Positions 11 to 7,066 of a stretch of 64,000 nt of DNA are shown piece by piece. The stretch is from Streptomyces sp. NBC_00341 (GTDB lineage: Bacteria; Actinomycetota; Actinomycetes; Streptomycetales; Streptomycetaceae). The stretch spans positions 7,502,001 through 7,566,000 of the forward strand of contig NZ_CP108002.1 of assembly GCF_041435055.1 (NCBI RefSeq), written 5' to 3'. Below the pieces are notes generated by a model. That model saw only the letters and a program-made list of their open reading frames with translations. It was not told the DNA's origin and ran no database searches. Numbering within the stretch: position 1 is the first letter of the stretch; every line of letters starts with the position of its first letter. The position numbers and the translations under genes were made by a program.

Positions 11-29
11 TTAGGTAAGGCTAACCTAA
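11..29. promoter_or_regulatory. Iron box (DmdR/IdeR-type operator)
   Basis: TTAGGTAAGGCTAACCTAA is a near-perfect 19-bp palindrome. It differs at only two positions from the DmdR1/IdeR/DtxR iron-box consensus TTAGGTTAGGCTCACCTAA. It lies 75 bp upstream of the TTG start I prefer for the first gene and may also serve a divergent gene left of the window. Repression by Fe2+-loaded DmdR is inferred from the motif. Confidence 0.85.
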
Positions 30-104
30 CTCTTAATGGTTCACCGGGGGTACGCGGCGATCCGGCCGCTCCTCGCGCACGGTGGAACCCGAGGAAGGAA
101 CGCC

Positions 105-644
105 TTGATCACGGCCACACCGCGCCCCTCAGTCGCGTCGACGCACACCCCGGACGCACCCCTCCTCCCTGACATCCTCCGGGTGCGCCGGGCTCACTCC
201 GGGGACGCCGCCGCCCTCGTCGCACTCTCCGAGCCGTTCGTCCGCTCGGGGGCGCTGCGCCGCCGGCCCTTCGACGTCTACGCCGCCCGAGCGGCAGACT
301 TCCTGGTGGCGGAGGAGCCCGGCGGCGCCCTGCACGGCTGCCTCGCGCTGCGGGCCCATCCCGACGCGGAACCCGGCACGACGGCCGAGGGTGCGGGCGT
401 CCTCTACAACTTCTGTGTCGCCCGGCAGCGGCAGGGCAGCGGCCTGGGCGCCCGGCTGCTGGGCGCGGCACTCGCCGGGGCGCGGGCCCAGCCGCTGGCG
501 GCCCTGTTCACCGCGACGACCGGCAGCGGGCGGCTCTTCCTCCGGCACGGATTCGCGCCGGTCCCGCCGGGTCTCGCCCCGCGCGCCTGGGCGCGCACGC
601 TGGATCCCCGGCGGGGCGCGCGCGTTCTGGCCCGCGCGCTGTGA
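105..644 (+). CDS. GNAT acetyltransferase, N-acetylglutamate-synthase-like
   Basis: A 179-residue GNAT-fold acetyltransferase using acetyl-CoA. The TTG at 105 is chosen because GAGGAAGGAA sits just upstream; the in-frame ATG at 36 has no ribosome site and almost abuts the iron box. The acetyl-CoA loop is visible as RQRQGSGLGARLL, followed by the late FLRHGF element. The first half (VRRAHSGDAAALVALSEPFV...VYAARAADFLVAE) resembles the short single-domain N-acetylglutamate synthases of actinobacteria, so glutamate acetylation is a plausible but unproven activity. The iron box predicts expression under iron starvation. An argB paralogue, the next enzyme of that pathway, lies immediately downstream in convergent orientation. 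A generic GNAT with another substrate is the main alternative. Confidence 0.7.
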   Translation: MITATPRPSVASTHTPDAPLLPDILRVRRAHSGDAAALVALSEPFVRSGALRRRPFDVYAARAADFLVAEEPGGALHGCLALRAHPDAEPGTTAEGAGVLYNFCVARQRQGSGLGARLLGAALAGARAQPLAALFTATTGSGRLFLRHGFAPVPPGLAPRAWARTLDPRRGARVLARAL

Positions 645-648
645 CGAC

Positions 649-681
649 GGTGGCGTGCCCCGGACTCCGGGGCACGCCACC
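649..681. terminator. Bidirectional hairpin terminator
   Basis: A perfect 15-bp inverted repeat (GGTGGCGTGCCCCGG at 649-663, complement at 667-681) with a 3-nt loop lies between the convergent GNAT and argB-like genes. There is no T tract, as is usual in Streptomyces. Confidence 0.75.
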
Positions 682-683
682 GC

Positions 684-740
684 TCATGCCTCACGCGTCA
701 CACATCACGTCTCAGCGTCATGCCTCATGCCTCACGCGTC
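684..740. repeat. 16-bp direct repeat spanning the argB-like stop codon
   Basis: TCATGCCTCACGCGTC occurs at 684-699 and again at 725-740; the second copy contains the stop codon of the minus-strand argB-like gene. A third partial copy (TCATGCC) starts at 718. This looks like a short duplication of the gene's 3' end. Confidence 0.7.
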
Positions 741-1652
741 CGGGAGGATCGTCGTCCCGGGGCTCCGCTCGTCGAGTACGCCGCGCAGCACGGCGTGCGG
801 GACCCGGCCATCCAGCACCTGCGCCCGCCCCACCCCGGCCCGGACCGCCCGCAGGCAGCCCTCCATCTTCGGGAGCATCCCGCTCGCCAGCCCCGGAAGC
901 AGCCCGGCCAGCTCGGCAGCCGTCAGGCGCTCGATGACCTCCGTGCTGCGCGGCCAGTCCCCGTACAGCCCTTCGACATCGGTCAGCATCACCAGCCGCT
1001 CGGCGCCGAGGGCGACCGCGAGGGCCGAGGCCGCGAGATCGGCGTTGACGTTGTAGACCTCCCCCTCCGTGCCGCGCGCGAGGGGTGACACCACCGGGAT
1101 GCGGCCCAGCTCCAGCAGTGAACGGACGGTGTCCGGGGCCACGTTCACGATGTCGCCGACCAGGCCGATGTCCACGGGCGCCCCGTTCACCCGGCCGGAC
1201 CGGCGCACGGCCGTCATGGTGTGGGCGTCCTCGCCCGACAGCCCCACGGCGAACGGGCCGTGTGCGTTGATCGCGCCGACCAGTTCCCGCTGGACCCGAC
1301 CGGTGAGCACCATCCGCACCACGTCGAGGGTCTCCTCCGTGGTCACCCGCAGACCCGACTCGAAGCGGACCTCCAGGCCGAGGCGGTCGAGCATCGCGCT
1401 GATCTGCGGGCCACCGCCGTGGACCACCACCGGTAGCAGGCCGGAGTGCCACAGCTCCACGACATCGCGCGCGAACATCTCCTGGAGCGATCCGTCGACC
1501 ATGGCGTTGCCGCCGAACTTGACCACCACCACGCGGCCCCGGGTCTCCGTGGGCAGGGCCGGGCCGGACCGGGGCTCCGGCAGTGTCCGTCTCCTGTGCT
1601 GCGGTGACTGCTCATGGCTGCCGGCTCCGGCCGGCGCGACCCGTACGGTCAT
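732..1652 (-). CDS. argB: Acetylglutamate kinase paralogue
   Basis: Predicted N-acetyl-L-glutamate kinase (306 aa), phosphorylating N-acetylglutamate with ATP in the acetylated ornithine/arginine route. Family signatures are present: KFGGNAM (phosphate-binding lysine), [31 protein letters not shown] and SGMLPKMEG. The ATG at 1652 is preceded by GGAAGAAG. The roughly 45-residue N terminus is Pro/Ser/Arg-rich. It lacks a recognisable form of the amphipathic helix that arginine-sensitive ArgB proteins carry just before the KFGG strand, so loss of arginine feedback is inferred. It lies 31 bp downstream of the isochorismatase-like gene and should share its iron-boxed promoter. This is probably a specialised second copy, since arginine-pathway argB normally sits in argCJBD and no other arg gene is seen here. 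Confidence 0.85.
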
Positions 1653-1683
1653 CTTCTTCCGTCTCTCCTGAGGTGGGGCGCCG

Positions 1684-2340
1684 TCACACGTCGTGGTGGA
1701 CCCGGCCGAGCAGCAGATCGCGCAGCAGGCCGTCCGTCGTGCGGACGACCGCGCTGCGAGCCGCCCAGCGCAGCGCCATCGCGTGCTCCTCCGCGGTGAA
1801 GTCGGCCACGGCGTCGGCGACGACAAAGGGCTGGATGTCGTTCATGAAGGCGTCCGCGGCGGTCAGTAGCACTCCCAGGTGGGCGTGCACGCCGCACACG
1901 ATCAGCTGATCGCGCCCCGTCGAGCGCAGCAGCCGGCCGAGGTGGCTGTGCAGAAAGGCGTTGGGGCGCACATTGGGCAGCACGTGCTCGCCCGGCCGGG
2001 GCGTCAGGGCCTCGATGATCGAGGAGTCGCCGGGTCCGTCACCGACGCCCGGACCCCAGACGTCCGCGACGAGCCCCCGCCTGCCCGGCGACTGGGCCGC
2101 GGGTTCGGCGCTGAAGACGACCGGGATGCCGAGCGTTCCGGCGAGTTCCCGCAACGCGGCGATGTTCTCGACCAGTTGGACGACCGGGGACCGGCCCGGC
2201 GGGAACGCCTGGACGAAGTGGTTCTGCATGTCGTGGACGAGCAGTGCGGCGCGGCCGGGGACGATCGTCCAGGAGGGCCAGGAGCGGGGGAGGGCCGTAC
2301 CGTCGGGCATGTCGTAGGACTCGATGACTGGCAGGCCCAT
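1684..2340 (-). CDS. Isochorismatase-family protein, altered active site
   Basis: A 218-residue alpha/beta hydrolase resembling the hydrolase domain of EntB/DhbB/PhzD, which converts isochorismate to 2,3-dihydro-2,3-dihydroxybenzoate. [10 protein letters not shown] supplies the expected aspartate, and the C-terminal segment from [10 protein letters not shown] through VVADAVADF fits the siderophore-type subfamily. In the strand that normally reads TKWRYSAF this protein has PNVRPNAF, so the catalytic lysine position is asparagine. The aryl-carrier domain of EntB is absent. The start at 2340 is preceded by GGGGAGGGG. It heads a two-gene unit with the argB paralogue under the iron box at 2423. 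No entA, entC or entE homologue is in the window. Family membership is secure; isochorismatase activity is doubtful. Confidence 0.8.
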
Positions 2341-2422
2341 GACCGGCCCCTCCCCTGATGATCCGGCGATCCGGCCGTTGACGATCCGGCGATCCGGCCG
2401 TGGCGCGAGGATGCACTGCGAC

Positions 2423-2441
2423 TTAGTGAAGCCTAACCTAA
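2423..2441. promoter_or_regulatory. Iron box upstream of isochorismatase/argB unit
   Basis: On the minus strand this reads TTAGGTTAGGCTTCACTAA, with the left half identical to the DmdR1 consensus and three mismatches on the right. It lies about 80 bp upstream of the isochorismatase-like start at 2340 and just beyond the 3' end of the DUF2470 gene. Confidence 0.85.
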
Positions 2442-2461: not shown

Positions 2462-3181
2462 TCAGGGGTGGGAGTGGTGCTGCTGGTGCGCGCAGCTCCG
2501 GGGCGCGGTGAGGAGGCGTCGGATCTGCTCACCGGCATCAGTGGCGTCGCGAGCGAGCGCCGGGAAGAGCAACTGGAGGTCGCAGTGGCCGGATTCGTAC
2601 TCGCAGCGCAGGGTGATGCCGTGCCGGTCCAGTGCGAGGGGGAGTGAGCGGATCATGCCGCGCGGCAGCCCGGAGCCCGCGAGCCCGAGCAGATCGGCCA
2701 TCAACTCCTCGTGCGAGTCGGTCAGATGGGTCAGCATGGCGGCCTCCTCCACCGCCAGCGGGTCGGGTTCGGCGAGTGCGATCTCGTCCAGCCCGACGTC
2801 CGTCGCGCCCGCCGGGGTCCGCAGCGAGACCCGCGCCGAATCGAGCCGGAGCGCCCCGTCGGTCTCCGGTGCCAGCCAGCCGGACACCGTCACCCTCGCG
2901 CGGACCCGGTCGCGCAGCGGGGTGGGGGCGATGTCGGTGAACTGCAGCAGGACGGCGAGGCTGCCCATGGGGGCGTCGGCGGCCTCCCGCGCCAATGGGC
3001 TGTCGGGGCCGGGGTGGAGAGTGACCTGACCGGCGGCGCTGACCGAGTGGAGCCCGATCAGGTCGTACGCCTGCGCGGTCGTGGTGAGGGAGAGCGAGGT
3101 CGCGCGGGACAGCACGGTGCGGACCTGCTCCGCGTCGGTCGGCCCGGCCGGAACGGTGTCTGCGTCGGCATCGGTGTTCAA
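2462..3181 (-). CDS. DUF2470-domain protein, iron-regulated
   Basis: A 239-residue soluble protein. Its second half, from roughly residue 145 (EEAAMLTHLTDSHEELMADLL) onward, matches the DUF2470 domain found at the C terminus of HugZ-like haem-utilisation proteins. The N-terminal half looks like the flavin-reductase/pyridoxamine-oxidase-like barrel that usually precedes it. The start is TTG at 3181 with GGGAG six bases before it. The iron box at 3209-3227 lies directly upstream, consistent with a role in haem or iron handling. The exact reaction is unknown, and I do not see enough to call it a haem oxygenase. Confidence 0.75.
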   Translation of the reverse strand: MNTDADADTVPAGPTDAEQVRTVLSRATSLSLTTTAQAYDLIGLHSVSAAGQVTLHPGPDSPLAREAADAPMGSLAVLLQFTDIAPTPLRDRVRARVTVSGWLAPETDGALRLDSARVSLRTPAGATDVGLDEIALAEPDPLAVEEAAMLTHLTDSHEELMADLLGLAGSGLPRGMIRSLPLALDRHGITLRCEYESGHCDLQLLFPALARDATDAGEQIRRLLTAPRSCAHQQHHSHP

Positions 3182-3208: not shown

Positions 3209-3227
3209 TTAGGTAAGCCTAACCTTA
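3209..3227. promoter_or_regulatory. Iron box between DUF2470 gene and GNAT
   Basis: The minus strand reads TAAGGTTAGGCTTACCTAA, two mismatches from the iron-box consensus. It lies 27 bp from the DUF2470 start and about 100 bp from the divergent GNAT start, so DUF2470 is the likelier target although either or both could be controlled. Confidence 0.85.
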
Positions 3228-3325
3228 TTTTGTGGGTCGTGCGGACGGGTGCTGCCTCCGCACCCCTCCGCACTACCGTTCGCCGGATGAGGGACGATCG
3301 GGTGAACCGTCCAGGGAGGGTCTCG

Positions 3326-3892
3326 ATGAACATCACCTTGCGGGTGGACGCCACGCCGTCCGCCCCCGCGCTCCTGCTGCGCCCCTGGGGTGAGGCGGAC
3401 ATCGGGCCGCTGGGCAAGGCGTTCCGGGACCCCGCGTTGCGCCGAGGGGCGAGCGGCCCCATGGAGAGCGCCGAGGACCTACGGGCGTGGCTGGAGCTCC
3501 AGGGGCGCGGCTGGGTCACCGGGGAGCGGCTCGCCTTCGCCGTGATTGAGGATCACCCGGGCTCCCGCGAGGGCCGGTTGGCGGGCAGCGTGGTCATCAA
3601 GAGGGGCATTTCCGGCCAGGGGCCCGCGGAGGCCGGCTACTGGACGGCGGCGCACGCCCGAGGCCGCGGGGTGGCCCCCCGCGCTCTGGAGGCCGTCACC
3701 CGCTGGACCTTCGAGACCTTCGCGGCCGACGGCCTGGAGAGCATCAACCTGCTCCATCAGGTGGACAATCCGGCCTCGTGCCGGGTCGCGGAGAAGGCCC
3801 GCTACGAGTTCCGCCAGATCCTTCCGGCCCAGCCGCCGTCCTTCCCCCGGCCCGGCCATCTGCATGTGCGGCAGGCCGGCTCCCCGGCCTGA
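3326..3892 (+). CDS. GNAT acetyltransferase, RimJ/RimL type
   Basis: A 188-residue GNAT protein of the RimJ/RimL-like group, with an N-terminal LLLRPWGEADIGPL strand-helix and the acetyl-CoA motif ARGRGVAPRALEAVTRW. The later INLLHQVDNPASCRVAEKARYEF segment is typical of this subfamily. The ATG at 3326 follows AGGGAGGG; an upstream in-frame start at 3230 lacks a ribosome site. It is divergent from the DUF2470 gene across an iron box, so iron regulation is possible. The substrate cannot be inferred. Confidence 0.8.
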   Translation: MNITLRVDATPSAPALLLRPWGEADIGPLGKAFRDPALRRGASGPMESAEDLRAWLELQGRGWVTGERLAFAVIEDHPGSREGRLAGSVVIKRGISGQGPAEAGYWTAAHARGRGVAPRALEAVTRWTFETFAADGLESINLLHQVDNPASCRVAEKARYEFRQILPAQPPSFPRPGHLHVRQAGSPA

Positions 3893-4168: not shown

Positions 4169-4332
4169 TAGCGTGCACAGCAGCCCCACAGTGCCCCCGC
4201 ATCAGTTCCACAGCACGTGCCTGCCATCCCCACCTGCACCCCACCCGCACCCGCAATTTCGCCCCACCTCCTGAACGGCACCCCGCCCCGGTCGGCGCAG
4301 CTTCGGCATGCCCCAACGCGCCCTGCGCCTGT

Positions 4333-4357
4333 CCTGTCATATACATGACATGACAGG
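4333..4357. promoter_or_regulatory. Nested palindromes in the GH16 leader
   Basis: TGTCAT-ATAC-ATGACA (4335-4350) is a perfect inverted repeat. A second ATGACA-containing arm extends it to CCTGTCAT/ATGACAGG (4333-4340/4350-4357). It lies 35 bp before the GH16 start and could be an operator or an RNA hairpin. Confidence 0.4.
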
Positions 4358-4391
4358 CCCCCTTCCCCCTCATGCACCGGAAGGGAGAGTC

Positions 4392-5666
4392 ATGGACTCC
4401 CCACGCCTGTCGCGGCGTCTGCTGCGCTCCGCACTCTCGGCCCTGACCCTTGCCCTGGTCACGACCGCCCTCGTGGGCGGTGGCGCCCACGAGCGGTCAC
4501 CCGCCCTCTCCGATACGGCGGCCTCGGCCGCCATGACGTTCGACGAGGAGTTCGACGGTTCTGCCGGCTCGGCGGTCAACGGCTCCAGATGGCAGATCGA
4601 GACCGGTGACAACGTCGACAACCACGAGCGGCAGTACTACACCGCCGGGAACAGCAACGCCGCGCTGGACGGCCAGGGACATCTCGTCATCACCGCGCGC
4701 AAGGAGAACCCGAACAACTACCAGTGCTGGTACGGCACCTGTCAGTACACGTCGGCGCGGCTGAACACCTCGGGCAAGTTCACCCAGGCCTACGGTCATG
4801 TCGAGGCCCGGATGAAGATCCCGCGCGGCCAGGGCATGTGGCCCGCCTTCTGGATGCTCGGCGACGACATCGGGCAGGTCGGCTGGCCCAACTCCGGCGA
4901 GATCGACATCATGGAGAACGTCGGCTTCGAACCCGGCACCGTCCACGGCACCCTGCACGGACCCGGCTACTCCGGCTCCGCCGGCATCGGCGCCGGATAC
5001 ACCCTCCCCGGCGGCCGGGCCTTCGCCGACGACTTCCACACCTTCGCCATCGACTGGGCCCCCGACTCCATCACCTGGTCCGTCGACGGCAACGTCTACC
5101 AGCACCGCACCCCCGCCGACACCAACGGCAACACCTGGGCCTTCAACAAACCCTTCTTCCTCATCCTCAACCTCGCCGTCGGCGGCTACTGGCCCGGCGA
5201 CCCCGACGGCAACACCACCTTCCCCCAGCAACTCGTCGTCGACCACGTCCGCGTCACCACCAACGACAACCAACCCCCGGCGGGTTCGGGCACCATCACC
5301 GGCCTGGCCGGAAAGTGCGTCGACGTGGCCGCGGCGAACAGCGCCAACGGCACTCCCGTCCAGCTCTACGACTGCAACGGCTCCGCCGCTCAGCGCTGGA
5401 GCGTCGGCGCGGACGGCACGATCAGGGCCCTGGGCAAGTGCCTTGACGTCGCGTCAGGTGGTACGGCGAACGGTTCCGTCGTCCAGTTGTGGGACTGCAA
5501 CGGCTCCGCTGCCCAGCGCTGGGCCGTCAGCGGTGCGCACGACATCGTGAATCCGCAGGCGGACAAGTGCCTGGACGTCACGGGGAACAGCTCGGCCAAC
5601 GGCACCCGGCTCCAGATCTGGACCTGCACCGGAGCAACCAACCAGAAGTGGACGGTGAACAGCTGA
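4392..5666 (+). CDS. Secreted GH16 endo-beta-1,3-glucanase with CBM13
   Basis: A 424-residue exported laminarinase-type enzyme cleaving beta-1,3-glucans. Domains in order: signal peptide (1 to ~45, twin arginines then a hydrophobic Ala/Leu core), GH16 catalytic domain (~48-292) and a ricin-type CBM13 with three QxW-like repeats (~298-424). The GH16 signature GEIDIMENVG gives E170 as nucleophile, D172 as helper and E175 as acid/base; the W-P-A-F-W-M segment is typical. The ATG at 4392 follows GGAAGGGAGAG. The stop overlaps the next start (TGATG), so translation is coupled to the GH18 chitinase. The lectin module is almost identical in DNA to the one in the next gene. Confidence 0.9.
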   Translation: MDSPRLSRRLLRSALSALTLALVTTALVGGGAHERSPALSDTAASAAMTFDEEFDGSAGSAVNGSRWQIETGDNVDNHERQYYTAGNSNAALDGQGHLVITARKENPNNYQCWYGTCQYTSARLNTSGKFTQAYGHVEARMKIPRGQGMWPAFWMLGDDIGQVGWPNSGEIDIMENVGFEPGTVHGTLHGPGYSGSAGIGAGYTLPGGRAFADDFHTFAIDWAPDSITWSVDGNVYQHRTPADTNGNTWAFNKPFFLILNLAVGGYWPGDPDGNTTFPQQLVVDHVRVTTNDNQPPAGSGTITGLAGKCVDVAAANSANGTPVQLYDCNGSAAQRWSVGADGTIRALGKCLDVASGGTANGSVVQLWDCNGSAAQRWAVSGAHDIVNPQADKCLDVTGNSSANGTRLQIWTCTGATNQKWTVNS

Positions 5667-6152
5667 TGCGCCGAGACCTGCTGCGCGGGCACGCCCCCGC
5701 CGTACGGAGCGCGCTGGGAGTCGTGGCCGCCGCCGCACTCCTCGCCGGACTGACCGGCTCGCCCGCCCTGGGCGCGGCCGCGGCCACCGGGCAGATCACC
5801 GGTACCGGCGGAAAGTGCGTCGACGTCGCGGCGGGAGCCACCGCCAACGGCACCCCCGTACAGCTCTACGACTGCAACGGCTCTGCCGCCCAGCAGTGGA
5901 GCGTGGGCAGTGACGGGTCGGTCAAGGCGCTGGGGAAGTGTCTTGACGTAGCGTCAGGTGGTACGGCGAACGGGGCGGTCGTCCAGTTGTGGGACTGCAA
6001 CGGCTCCGCTGCCCAGCGCTGGAGCGTCAGCGGTGCGCACGACATCGTGAATCCGCAGGCGGACAAGTGCCTGGACGCGACGGGGAACAGCTCGGCCAAC
6101 GGCACCCGGCTCCAGATCTGGACCTGCACCGGCGCGACGAATCAGAAGTGGA
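5294..6152. repeat. Duplicated CBM13-coding module (two copies 500 bp apart)
   Basis: The CBM13 module at 5294-5652 and its copy at 5794-6152 align with a constant offset of exactly 500 bp and no indels. Over 5442-5652 against 5942-6152 I count about a dozen differences in some 210 nt, with long identical stretches including silent positions. The 5' part of the module is more diverged. Confidence 0.85.
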
Positions 6153-7066
6153 CCGCGCCCGCGGCCGGCGGAGGCGGCGAGGACCCGGCGTCCCCCGGGG
6201 CGATGGCGGTCGCACCGTACCTCTACAACGGCTGGGGCAGCCCGCCCAGTCCGGCCACCGTCATGAACGCCACCGGCGTCAAGTGGTTCACCCTCGCCTT
6301 CGTCCTCAGCAACGGCTACTGCAACCCGCAGTGGGACGGCGGGAGGCCGCTGACCGGCGGCGTCGACCAGCAGACGGTGAACACCGTCCGGGCGGCGGGC
6401 GGCGACGTCATCCCGTCCTTCGGCGGCTGGAGCGGCAACAAGCTGGAGAGCTCCTGCTCCAGCGCCGGTGAGCTGGCGGCCGCGTACCAGAAGGTGATCA
6501 ACGCCTACGGTCTCAAGGCCATCGACATCGACATCGAGGCCGACGCGTACGCCAGCGCCACGGTGCAGCAGCGCACGGTCGACGCGCTGAAGACCGTCAA
6601 GGCCAACAATCCGGGCATCAAGGTGTACGTCACCTTCGGCACCGGCCAGAGCGGGCCCGACGACAGCATGATCCGCAAGGCGTCGGCCTCCGGGCTGACC
6701 GTGGACAGCTGGACGATCATGCCGTTCGACTTCGGCGGGGCGGGCCAGAACATGGGCAACCTCACCGTCAGCGCCGCAGAGGGGCTGAAGAACGTGGTCA
6801 AGGGCGCCTACGGGTACACGGACGACCAGGCGTACCGGCACACCGGGATCTCCTCGATGAACGGCATCACCGACGACAACGAGACCGTGACGGTCGCGGA
6901 CTTCCGCACCATCCTGGCCTACGCCCAGCAGCGCCACCTGGCCCGGCTCACCTTCTGGTCGGTCAACCGGGACCGCCCGTGCACCGGAGGCGGCGCCGAC
7001 ACCTGCTCGGGCGTCTCCCAGCAGCCCTGGGACTTCACGAAGGTGTTCGCCCAGTACGCGGGCTGA
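5666..7066 (+). CDS. Secreted CBM13-GH18 chitinase
   Basis: A 466-residue exported chitinase-like protein. Order: signal peptide (1 to ~35), CBM13 lectin module (~40-165), Gly-rich linker around GGGGEDPASPG, GH18 barrel (~183-466). The catalytic strand reads KAIDIDIEAD, giving D287, D289 and E291 (the proton donor); the first aspartate of the usual DxxDxDxE is lysine. PSFGGWSG and the terminal FWSVNRDRPC element fit bacterial ChiD-like GH18 enzymes. The ATG overlaps the GH16 stop and has no good ribosome site of its own. Chitin or chito-oligosaccharide hydrolysis is inferred; the DasR-like box upstream of the operon supports it. Confidence 0.85.
   Translation: MRRDLLRGHAPAVRSALGVVAAAALLAGLTGSPALGAAAATGQITGTGGKCVDVAAGATANGTPVQLYDCNGSAAQQWSVGSDGSVKALGKCLDVASGGTANGAVVQLWDCNGSAAQRWSVSGAHDIVNPQADKCLDATGNSSANGTRLQIWTCTGATNQKWTAPAAGGGGEDPASPGAMAVAPYLYNGWGSPPSPATVMNATGVKWFTLAFVLSNGYCNPQWDGGRPLTGGVDQQTVNTVRAAGGDVIPSFGGWSGNKLESSCSSAGELAAAYQKVINAYGLKAIDIDIEADAYASATVQQRTVDALKTVKANNPGIKVYVTFGTGQSGPDDSMIRKASASGLTVDSWTIMPFDFGGAGQNMGNLTVSAAEGLKNVVKGAYGYTDDQAYRHTGISSMNGITDDNETVTVADFRTILAYAQQRHLARLTFWSVNRDRPCTGGGADTCSGVSQQPWDFTKVFAQYAG

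Follow-up and report, generated by a model that had tools for sequence, protein, structure and literature searches.

Ornithine genes reportedly lie within a siderophore cluster in Streptomyces sp. MBT76, whose qinichelin (qch) cluster is said to have been described in Gubbens 2017. Here we describe a locus at the left end of a 64-kb stretch (G000:C1:7502001-7566000; hereafter the window) of the 9.06-Mb genome of Streptomyces sp. NBC_00341, which holds a paralogue of the acetylglutamate kinase gene (argB2), a gene for a GNAT-family acetyltransferase resembling N-acetylglutamate synthase (NAGS), an isochorismatase-like gene (isoC) and predicted iron boxes. Judged from its sequence, the locus is quite likely an iron-starvation-induced, arginine-insensitive feeder, which would direct glutamate towards hydroxamate synthesis by way of the cell's own ornithine pathway.

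Glutamate-to-ornithine genes have been observed inside the qinichelin cluster (PMC9866976), and the 2,3-dihydroxybenzoate (DHB) of qinichelin comes from another cluster (PMC10127220). The window resembles this system, which we compared by description only, in having ornithine-making genes inside a catecholate-hydroxamate type of cluster built on a non-ribosomal peptide synthetase (NRPS) and in having DHB supplied by a separate cluster; it differs in retaining just a NAGS-like GNAT and a kinase, the latter without its arginine site. An argC-J-B-D ornithine module is also found in the stenothricin, lunaemycin and other clusters (77 biosynthetic gene clusters in PMC6395733; also PMC9866976). As in these modules, the window carries paralogous ornithine genes that appear dedicated to a secondary metabolite, but the modules are described as four-gene sets, whereas the set in the window has been reduced, stands behind iron boxes and is accompanied by a NAGS-like GNAT and isoC. 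Coelichelin (cch) combines a formyltransferase, an ornithine monooxygenase, an NRPS, FecCD uptake and DmdR iron control (PMC9854754), all of which have counterparts here, the iron control being predicted. However, CchH has three modules against four adenylation domains in the window-side NRPS, and the available text of PMC9854754 does not mention ornithine genes for cch. Finally, ArgB2 shares the ArgB fold and kinase motifs of the arginine-sensitive hexameric N-acetylglutamate kinases (NAGKs) of M. tuberculosis, T. maritima and cyanobacteria, but lacks their N-terminal EALPW helix and has its C-lobe Glu replaced.

Dedicated ornithine genes in clusters, qinichelin included, are already in print (PMC9866976, PMC6395733). 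A preliminary description of this DNA had suggested, as one option, a "new siderophore-related pathway"; a siderophore cluster does adjoin the locus, but "new" is too strong, because a siderophore cluster with dedicated ornithine genes had been published (PMC9866976). Our literature search returned no description of a siderophore-cluster NAGK without an arginine site, of an argC scar, or of iron-boxed loci repeatedly cut back to the committed steps, although most subscription papers lay outside the search and this is no proof of absence.

The kinase, the acetyltransferase and their iron boxes

ArgB2 scores 233.3 bits against the argB model TIGR00761, above the curated cut-off of 151.3, and is 61% identical to the other of the two full ArgB proteins in the genome, whose gene stands in argJ-argB-argD order. 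In the alignment, ArgB2 keeps intact the motifs VVKFGG, HGGGPQ, GLRVT, YNVNAD and GMLPKM, which we take to be kinase and substrate motifs. ArgB2 has no counterpart of the N-terminal helix that bears the EALPW Glu in canonical ArgB, and its C-lobe Glu of the LEIFTD-type motif, where canonical ArgB reads HSILLEIFTDEGIGT, is replaced. Arginine-sensitive NAGKs carry an N-terminal extension of 19-38 residues (PMC3329491), the arginine-insensitive E. coli NAGK has no such extension (PMC7027753), and Glu19 mutants of the C. crenatum enzyme are deregulated (PMC10464499). Since both arginine-site elements are missing, we strongly infer that ArgB2 is insensitive to arginine. Across 62 argB2 loci that we tabulated, both elements are kept in 10 proteins and missing from 50; the other two lack the helix motif, their C-terminal motif being unread. 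Some of the 52 helix-less proteins still show a remnant of the motif, for example DLPWLE, in which the Glu is substituted. These 52 group in a single clade (SH-aLRT 93, not starred) in a quick tree from which the C-terminal signature was left out, and all argB2 proteins split from canonical ArgB (100); this tree places the arginine-site loss on a single branch. In L133, L134 and L135 the argB2 is very divergent (branch 1.04) and sits at the distal end of other NRPS clusters, 26-29 kb from isoC. A structure model of ArgB2 made without an alignment was unusable (mean pLDDT 32.3).

The GNAT matches PF13508 and PF00583, and its best NCBIfam matches cover ArgA in its C-terminal half (E 1.4e-13 and 3e-13), in agreement with its earlier description as NAGS-like. 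We consider the TTG start at 105 likelier than the ATG at 36 because its ten best homologues have lengths of 176-182 aa. A profile of the family found four matches among PDB sequences, all of them NAGS, and for a predicted structure (pLDDT 87.8) the five best entries and the first six Foldseek rows were likewise NAGS, so that the predicted fold is an NAT fold nearest to NAGS. In N. gonorrhoeae NAGS, roles have been assigned to Arg425 and to Glu353, the proposed base (PMC4490483). The Arg aligned with Arg425 is invariant in 66 sequences, with the numbering offset inferred. The GNAT has no amino-acid-kinase domain and therefore none of the known arginine sites of this kind. We propose that it acts as an N-acetylglutamate synthase. 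A single contig scan with the GNAT as query returned just two loci. A second GNAT match in the genome (L009) looks like an unrelated GNAT.

Iron boxes were sought on both strands of the window with the pattern TTAGGTNAGGCTNNCCTAA for the DmdR/IdeR-type palindrome, allowing up to three mismatches. The scan gave six strand-matches at three places (Table 1), as against a mean of 0.05 matches and a maximum of one in 100 dinucleotide shuffles. Genome-wide, 10 places carry a box with at most one mismatch, and 5 of these lie inside one 6.7-kb stretch around the window's left end; on both counts we reject chance as their origin. The two boxes flanking the locus had been pointed out before; the third, together with the DUF2470-like gene next to it, had gone unmentioned. 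As in a DmdR/IdeR regulon, a box stands ahead of the genes in question, and the genome has one match to the regulator family PF02742; both the GNAT gene and the isoC-argB2 unit are predicted to be under iron control via a DmdR-type repressor. In the 62 tabulated loci, a box with at most two mismatches is present every time. At gene starts in these loci, boxes were found for 29 of 46 GNAT genes and 27 of 29 isoC genes, as against 51 of 1240 random windows; isoC heads its unit, and in orthologous loci a strong box nearly always precedes it.

The adjoining hydroxamate cluster and a predicted ornithine supply

The flank to the left of the window (7466001-7502000), of which four proteins were given family scans, holds an NRPS hydroxamate siderophore cluster with a formyltransferase and an ornithine/lysine monooxygenase. 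Its NRPS (4770 aa; 7478898-7493210) has four adenylation domains and a condensation domain first; two of the four pockets were assigned by eye, A2 and A3 matching the codes for serine and N5-hydroxyornithine, presumably their substrates. Other genes of the cluster encode a PAF-acetylhydrolase-like esterase, FecCD permeases, an ATPase and two ABC exporter-like open reading frames (ORFs). ORF reading, rather than a family scan, is the basis for naming the substrate-binding protein, both exporters, the second permease and the catechol-locus genes described below. The preliminary description had suggested partner genes left of the window. The NRPS cluster is indeed there, but argC, argJ and argD are missing from that flank in this genome, having been deleted, as an argC scar indicates, and no entACE homologues appeared in the 43.5 kb read here. 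Elsewhere in the genome (G000:C1:757000-763200; L070), a separate locus for a DHB catecholate siderophore has iron boxes and encodes a DhbB-like protein of normal appearance.

Relatives of the locus are not rare. An argB2-type protein (at least 68% identity) occurs in 58 of the 295 Streptomyces genomes examined, and, among the matches listed, isoC orthologues (at least 60% identity) occur in at least 27 of the 295. A second, cluster-type ArgB was found in 25 of 26 genomes searched, the exception being G032 with canonical ArgB only; a boxed isoC stands near a contig end in that genome (L058). Beside argB2, 26 of the 62 loci carry argC and/or argJ; argD is present in 22 and the GNAT in 46. In the loci tested, NCBIfam models identify argC, argJ and argD, the last from a 253-aa part that scored under its model's cut-off. 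At least one NRPS, monooxygenase, formyltransferase, FecCD permease or exporter gene was found in 58 of the 62 loci within the stretch examined. The earlier suggestion of a dedicated, iron-starvation-induced ornithine branch thus gains support from the cluster directly to the left and from the relatives with argC, argJ or argD beside argB2.

From these genes we infer the following enzyme activities and flow of ornithine to the siderophore. The window's left end would be the outer edge of the NRPS hydroxamate cluster, holding a reduced ornithine-supply module. At low iron, the metal-bound repressor would leave the iron boxes and the GNAT and argB2 would be expressed. The GNAT would take step 1, from glutamate and acetyl-CoA to N-acetylglutamate, which ArgB2 would phosphorylate in step 2; as ArgB2 would not be shut off by arginine, both committed steps could run despite enough arginine. 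Housekeeping ArgC, ArgD and ArgJ would complete ornithine, and the cluster's monooxygenase and formyltransferase would convert it to hydroxamate building blocks.

Several observations weigh against this scheme. The GNAT scores 50.5 and 49.5 bits against NAGS-model cut-offs of 344 and 202.85, the models being those of two-domain NAGS. An invariant Val aligns where N. gonorrhoeae NAGS has its base Glu353, and the Km for glutamate of short NAGS can be very poor (PMC4490483). No iron box with at most two mismatches stands at the start of 17 of the 46 GNAT genes. The GNAT is kept in 30 of 36 loci without argC and argJ and in 16 of 26 with them, giving no significant support to its standing in for ArgJ (Fisher p 0.078 for the ArgJ split). 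Four of the 62 loci (L046, L048, L141 and L166), three of them short stretches, showed none of the siderophore genes tested within the stretch examined. Three loci without argC and argJ (L064-L066) retain the arginine-site elements, so reduction does not need desensitisation. Lastly, the locus may simply be decaying, as shrinkage is visible.

Operon shrinkage and rival readings

At the window locus argB2 is the only member of the argC, argJ, argB and argD set, and no ArgC, ArgJ or ArgD match was found there (L002). The 54 bases around the argB2 start share up to 47 identities with argC starts of relatives, ribosome site included, while the maximum was 29 of 54 in a control set of 285 ATG alignments taken from other genes, whose ATGs lie up to 90 nt from the aligned starts and so are not all true starts. 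Relatives preserve further stages: 48 and 41 argC residues remain, fused to or adjacent ahead of argB2, in L047 and L049, isoC is cut down to residues 126-202 in G166, and in G204 isoC is gone, leaving argB2 33 nt from a DUF2470-like match. Because of the scar and these remnants, we read the window locus as a shrunken ornithine operon in which GNAT and argB2, for the two committed steps, have stayed; the ancestor would have been a full isoC-argC-argJ-argB-argD operon, reduced by deletion. The minimal state, without argC and argJ, is found in 36 of the 62 loci. An argC remnant is present in four of these (the window, L137, L047 and L049) and was not found in the other 32.

Such losses, from the argC remnant and the damaged or missing isoC to the disappearance of argC, argJ and argD from 36 loci, would also be expected if the argB2-GNAT pair were the leftover of a decaying ornithine operon, no longer important. 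However, the minimal state was reached several times over (8 changes on the tree, of which starred branches force at least 4), argB2 and GNAT mostly stayed together through it, the argB2 kinase motifs are kept across the alignment, and the iron boxes stay. We regard a relic as improbable, though the best placed of the alternatives.

The isoC protein (PF00857, 120 bits against a cut-off of 27), whose gene ends 31 nt ahead of argB2 (the preliminary description had likewise put an argB paralogue behind an isochorismatase-family gene), could instead be thought to make DHB for a catechol part of the siderophore. Among solved structures it stands nearest to PhzD and EntB-type isochorismatases, with which, and with DhbB, it shares Asp38, Arg87, Trp94 and Gly155, and the NRPS opens with a condensation domain, as an aryl-starter NRPS could. 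But isoC differs from these enzymes in Gln78 to Glu, Lys122 to Asn, Tyr125 to Pro and Tyr151 to His, and we take Gln78 and Lys122 of PhzD to be active-site residues. Among homologues, the Gln78 position is Glu in 120 of 120 and the Lys122 position Asn in 115 of 120, whereas the genome's own DhbB-like protein (G000:C1:762580) retains both and the DHB genes sit in that other cluster (about 757-763 kb). We reject isoC as a DHB-making isochorismatase, a role that seems slightly less probable even than a relic. Because the changed residues are conserved, the pattern argues for a divergent subfamily with a changed function rather than for decay.

That the window holds steps 1 and 2 only, and that the GNAT has a different residue where NAGS has its proposed base, could suggest that GNAT and ArgB2 furnish an acylated glutamate or glutamyl-phosphate building block instead of ornithine. 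We reject this as very unlikely, given the argC, argJ and argD genes within the argB2 unit of relatives and the ornithine/lysine monooxygenase of the cluster. Backup arginine biosynthesis, with argB2 supporting growth when ArgB limits and iron control incidental, would suit the good family score of ArgB2 but sits so poorly with boxes in all 62 loci and siderophore-type genes in 58 that we give it the least credence of all.

A broader conjecture, on which we are evenly divided, is that Streptomyces hydroxamate clusters carry an ornithine "pump" evolved in two steps: a whole iron-boxed arg operon would have been captured and its kinase would once have lost the arginine site, after which repeated deletions would have spared only the two committed steps in desensitised form, NAGK and a NAGS-like GNAT that has no regulatory domain. 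Low iron by itself could then override arginine feedback on the cell's own pathway. The isochorismatase-fold protein at the head of the operon, with its Glu78/Asn122 site, would take part in hydroxamate synthesis as a new enzyme or a new partner. The locus would then offer a natural case of a secondary pathway escaping primary-metabolism feedback, with an iron switch gained, an arginine switch lost on a paralogue and the steps that call for no control removed. It also provides a candidate ready-made feedback-resistant actinobacterial NAGK, names enzymes whose arginine response is directly measurable, and marks out a conserved, divergent isochorismatase-like subfamily.

Locus layout and neighbouring genes

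Table 1. Predicted iron boxes and genes at the left end of the window, numbered from its first base
Feature	Position	Strand	Remark
Iron box (DmdR/IdeR-type palindrome)	11..29	+	0 mismatches; 76 bp ahead of GNAT start at 105
NAGS-like GNAT, proposed N-acetylglutamate synthase	105..644	+	179 aa from TTG 105; a longer form would start at ATG 36
argB2, acetylglutamate kinase paralogue without arginine-site elements	732..1652	-	
argC deletion scar (ribosome site and first codons), now the argB2 start	1617..1670	-	
isoC, isochorismatase-like gene of a divergent subfamily	1684..2340	-	First gene of isoC-argB2 unit
Iron box	2423..2441	-	1 mismatch; 82 bp ahead of isoC
DUF2470-like gene	2462..3181	-	Weak match; upstream of isoC on same strand
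Third iron box, between DUF2470-like gene and divergent second GNAT gene	3209..3227	-	1 mismatch

The DUF2470-like protein matches PF10615 with 20.3 bits, under the cut-off of 22. A relative of it adjoins isoC in L060, and others were found in L137, L138 and L146. A second GNAT gene (3287-3892; Acetyltransf_3) runs divergently from the DUF2470-like gene across the third box. Further along, at 4308-7066, the ORF list contains frames resembling a secreted glucanase and a chitinase with repeated carbohydrate-binding tails.
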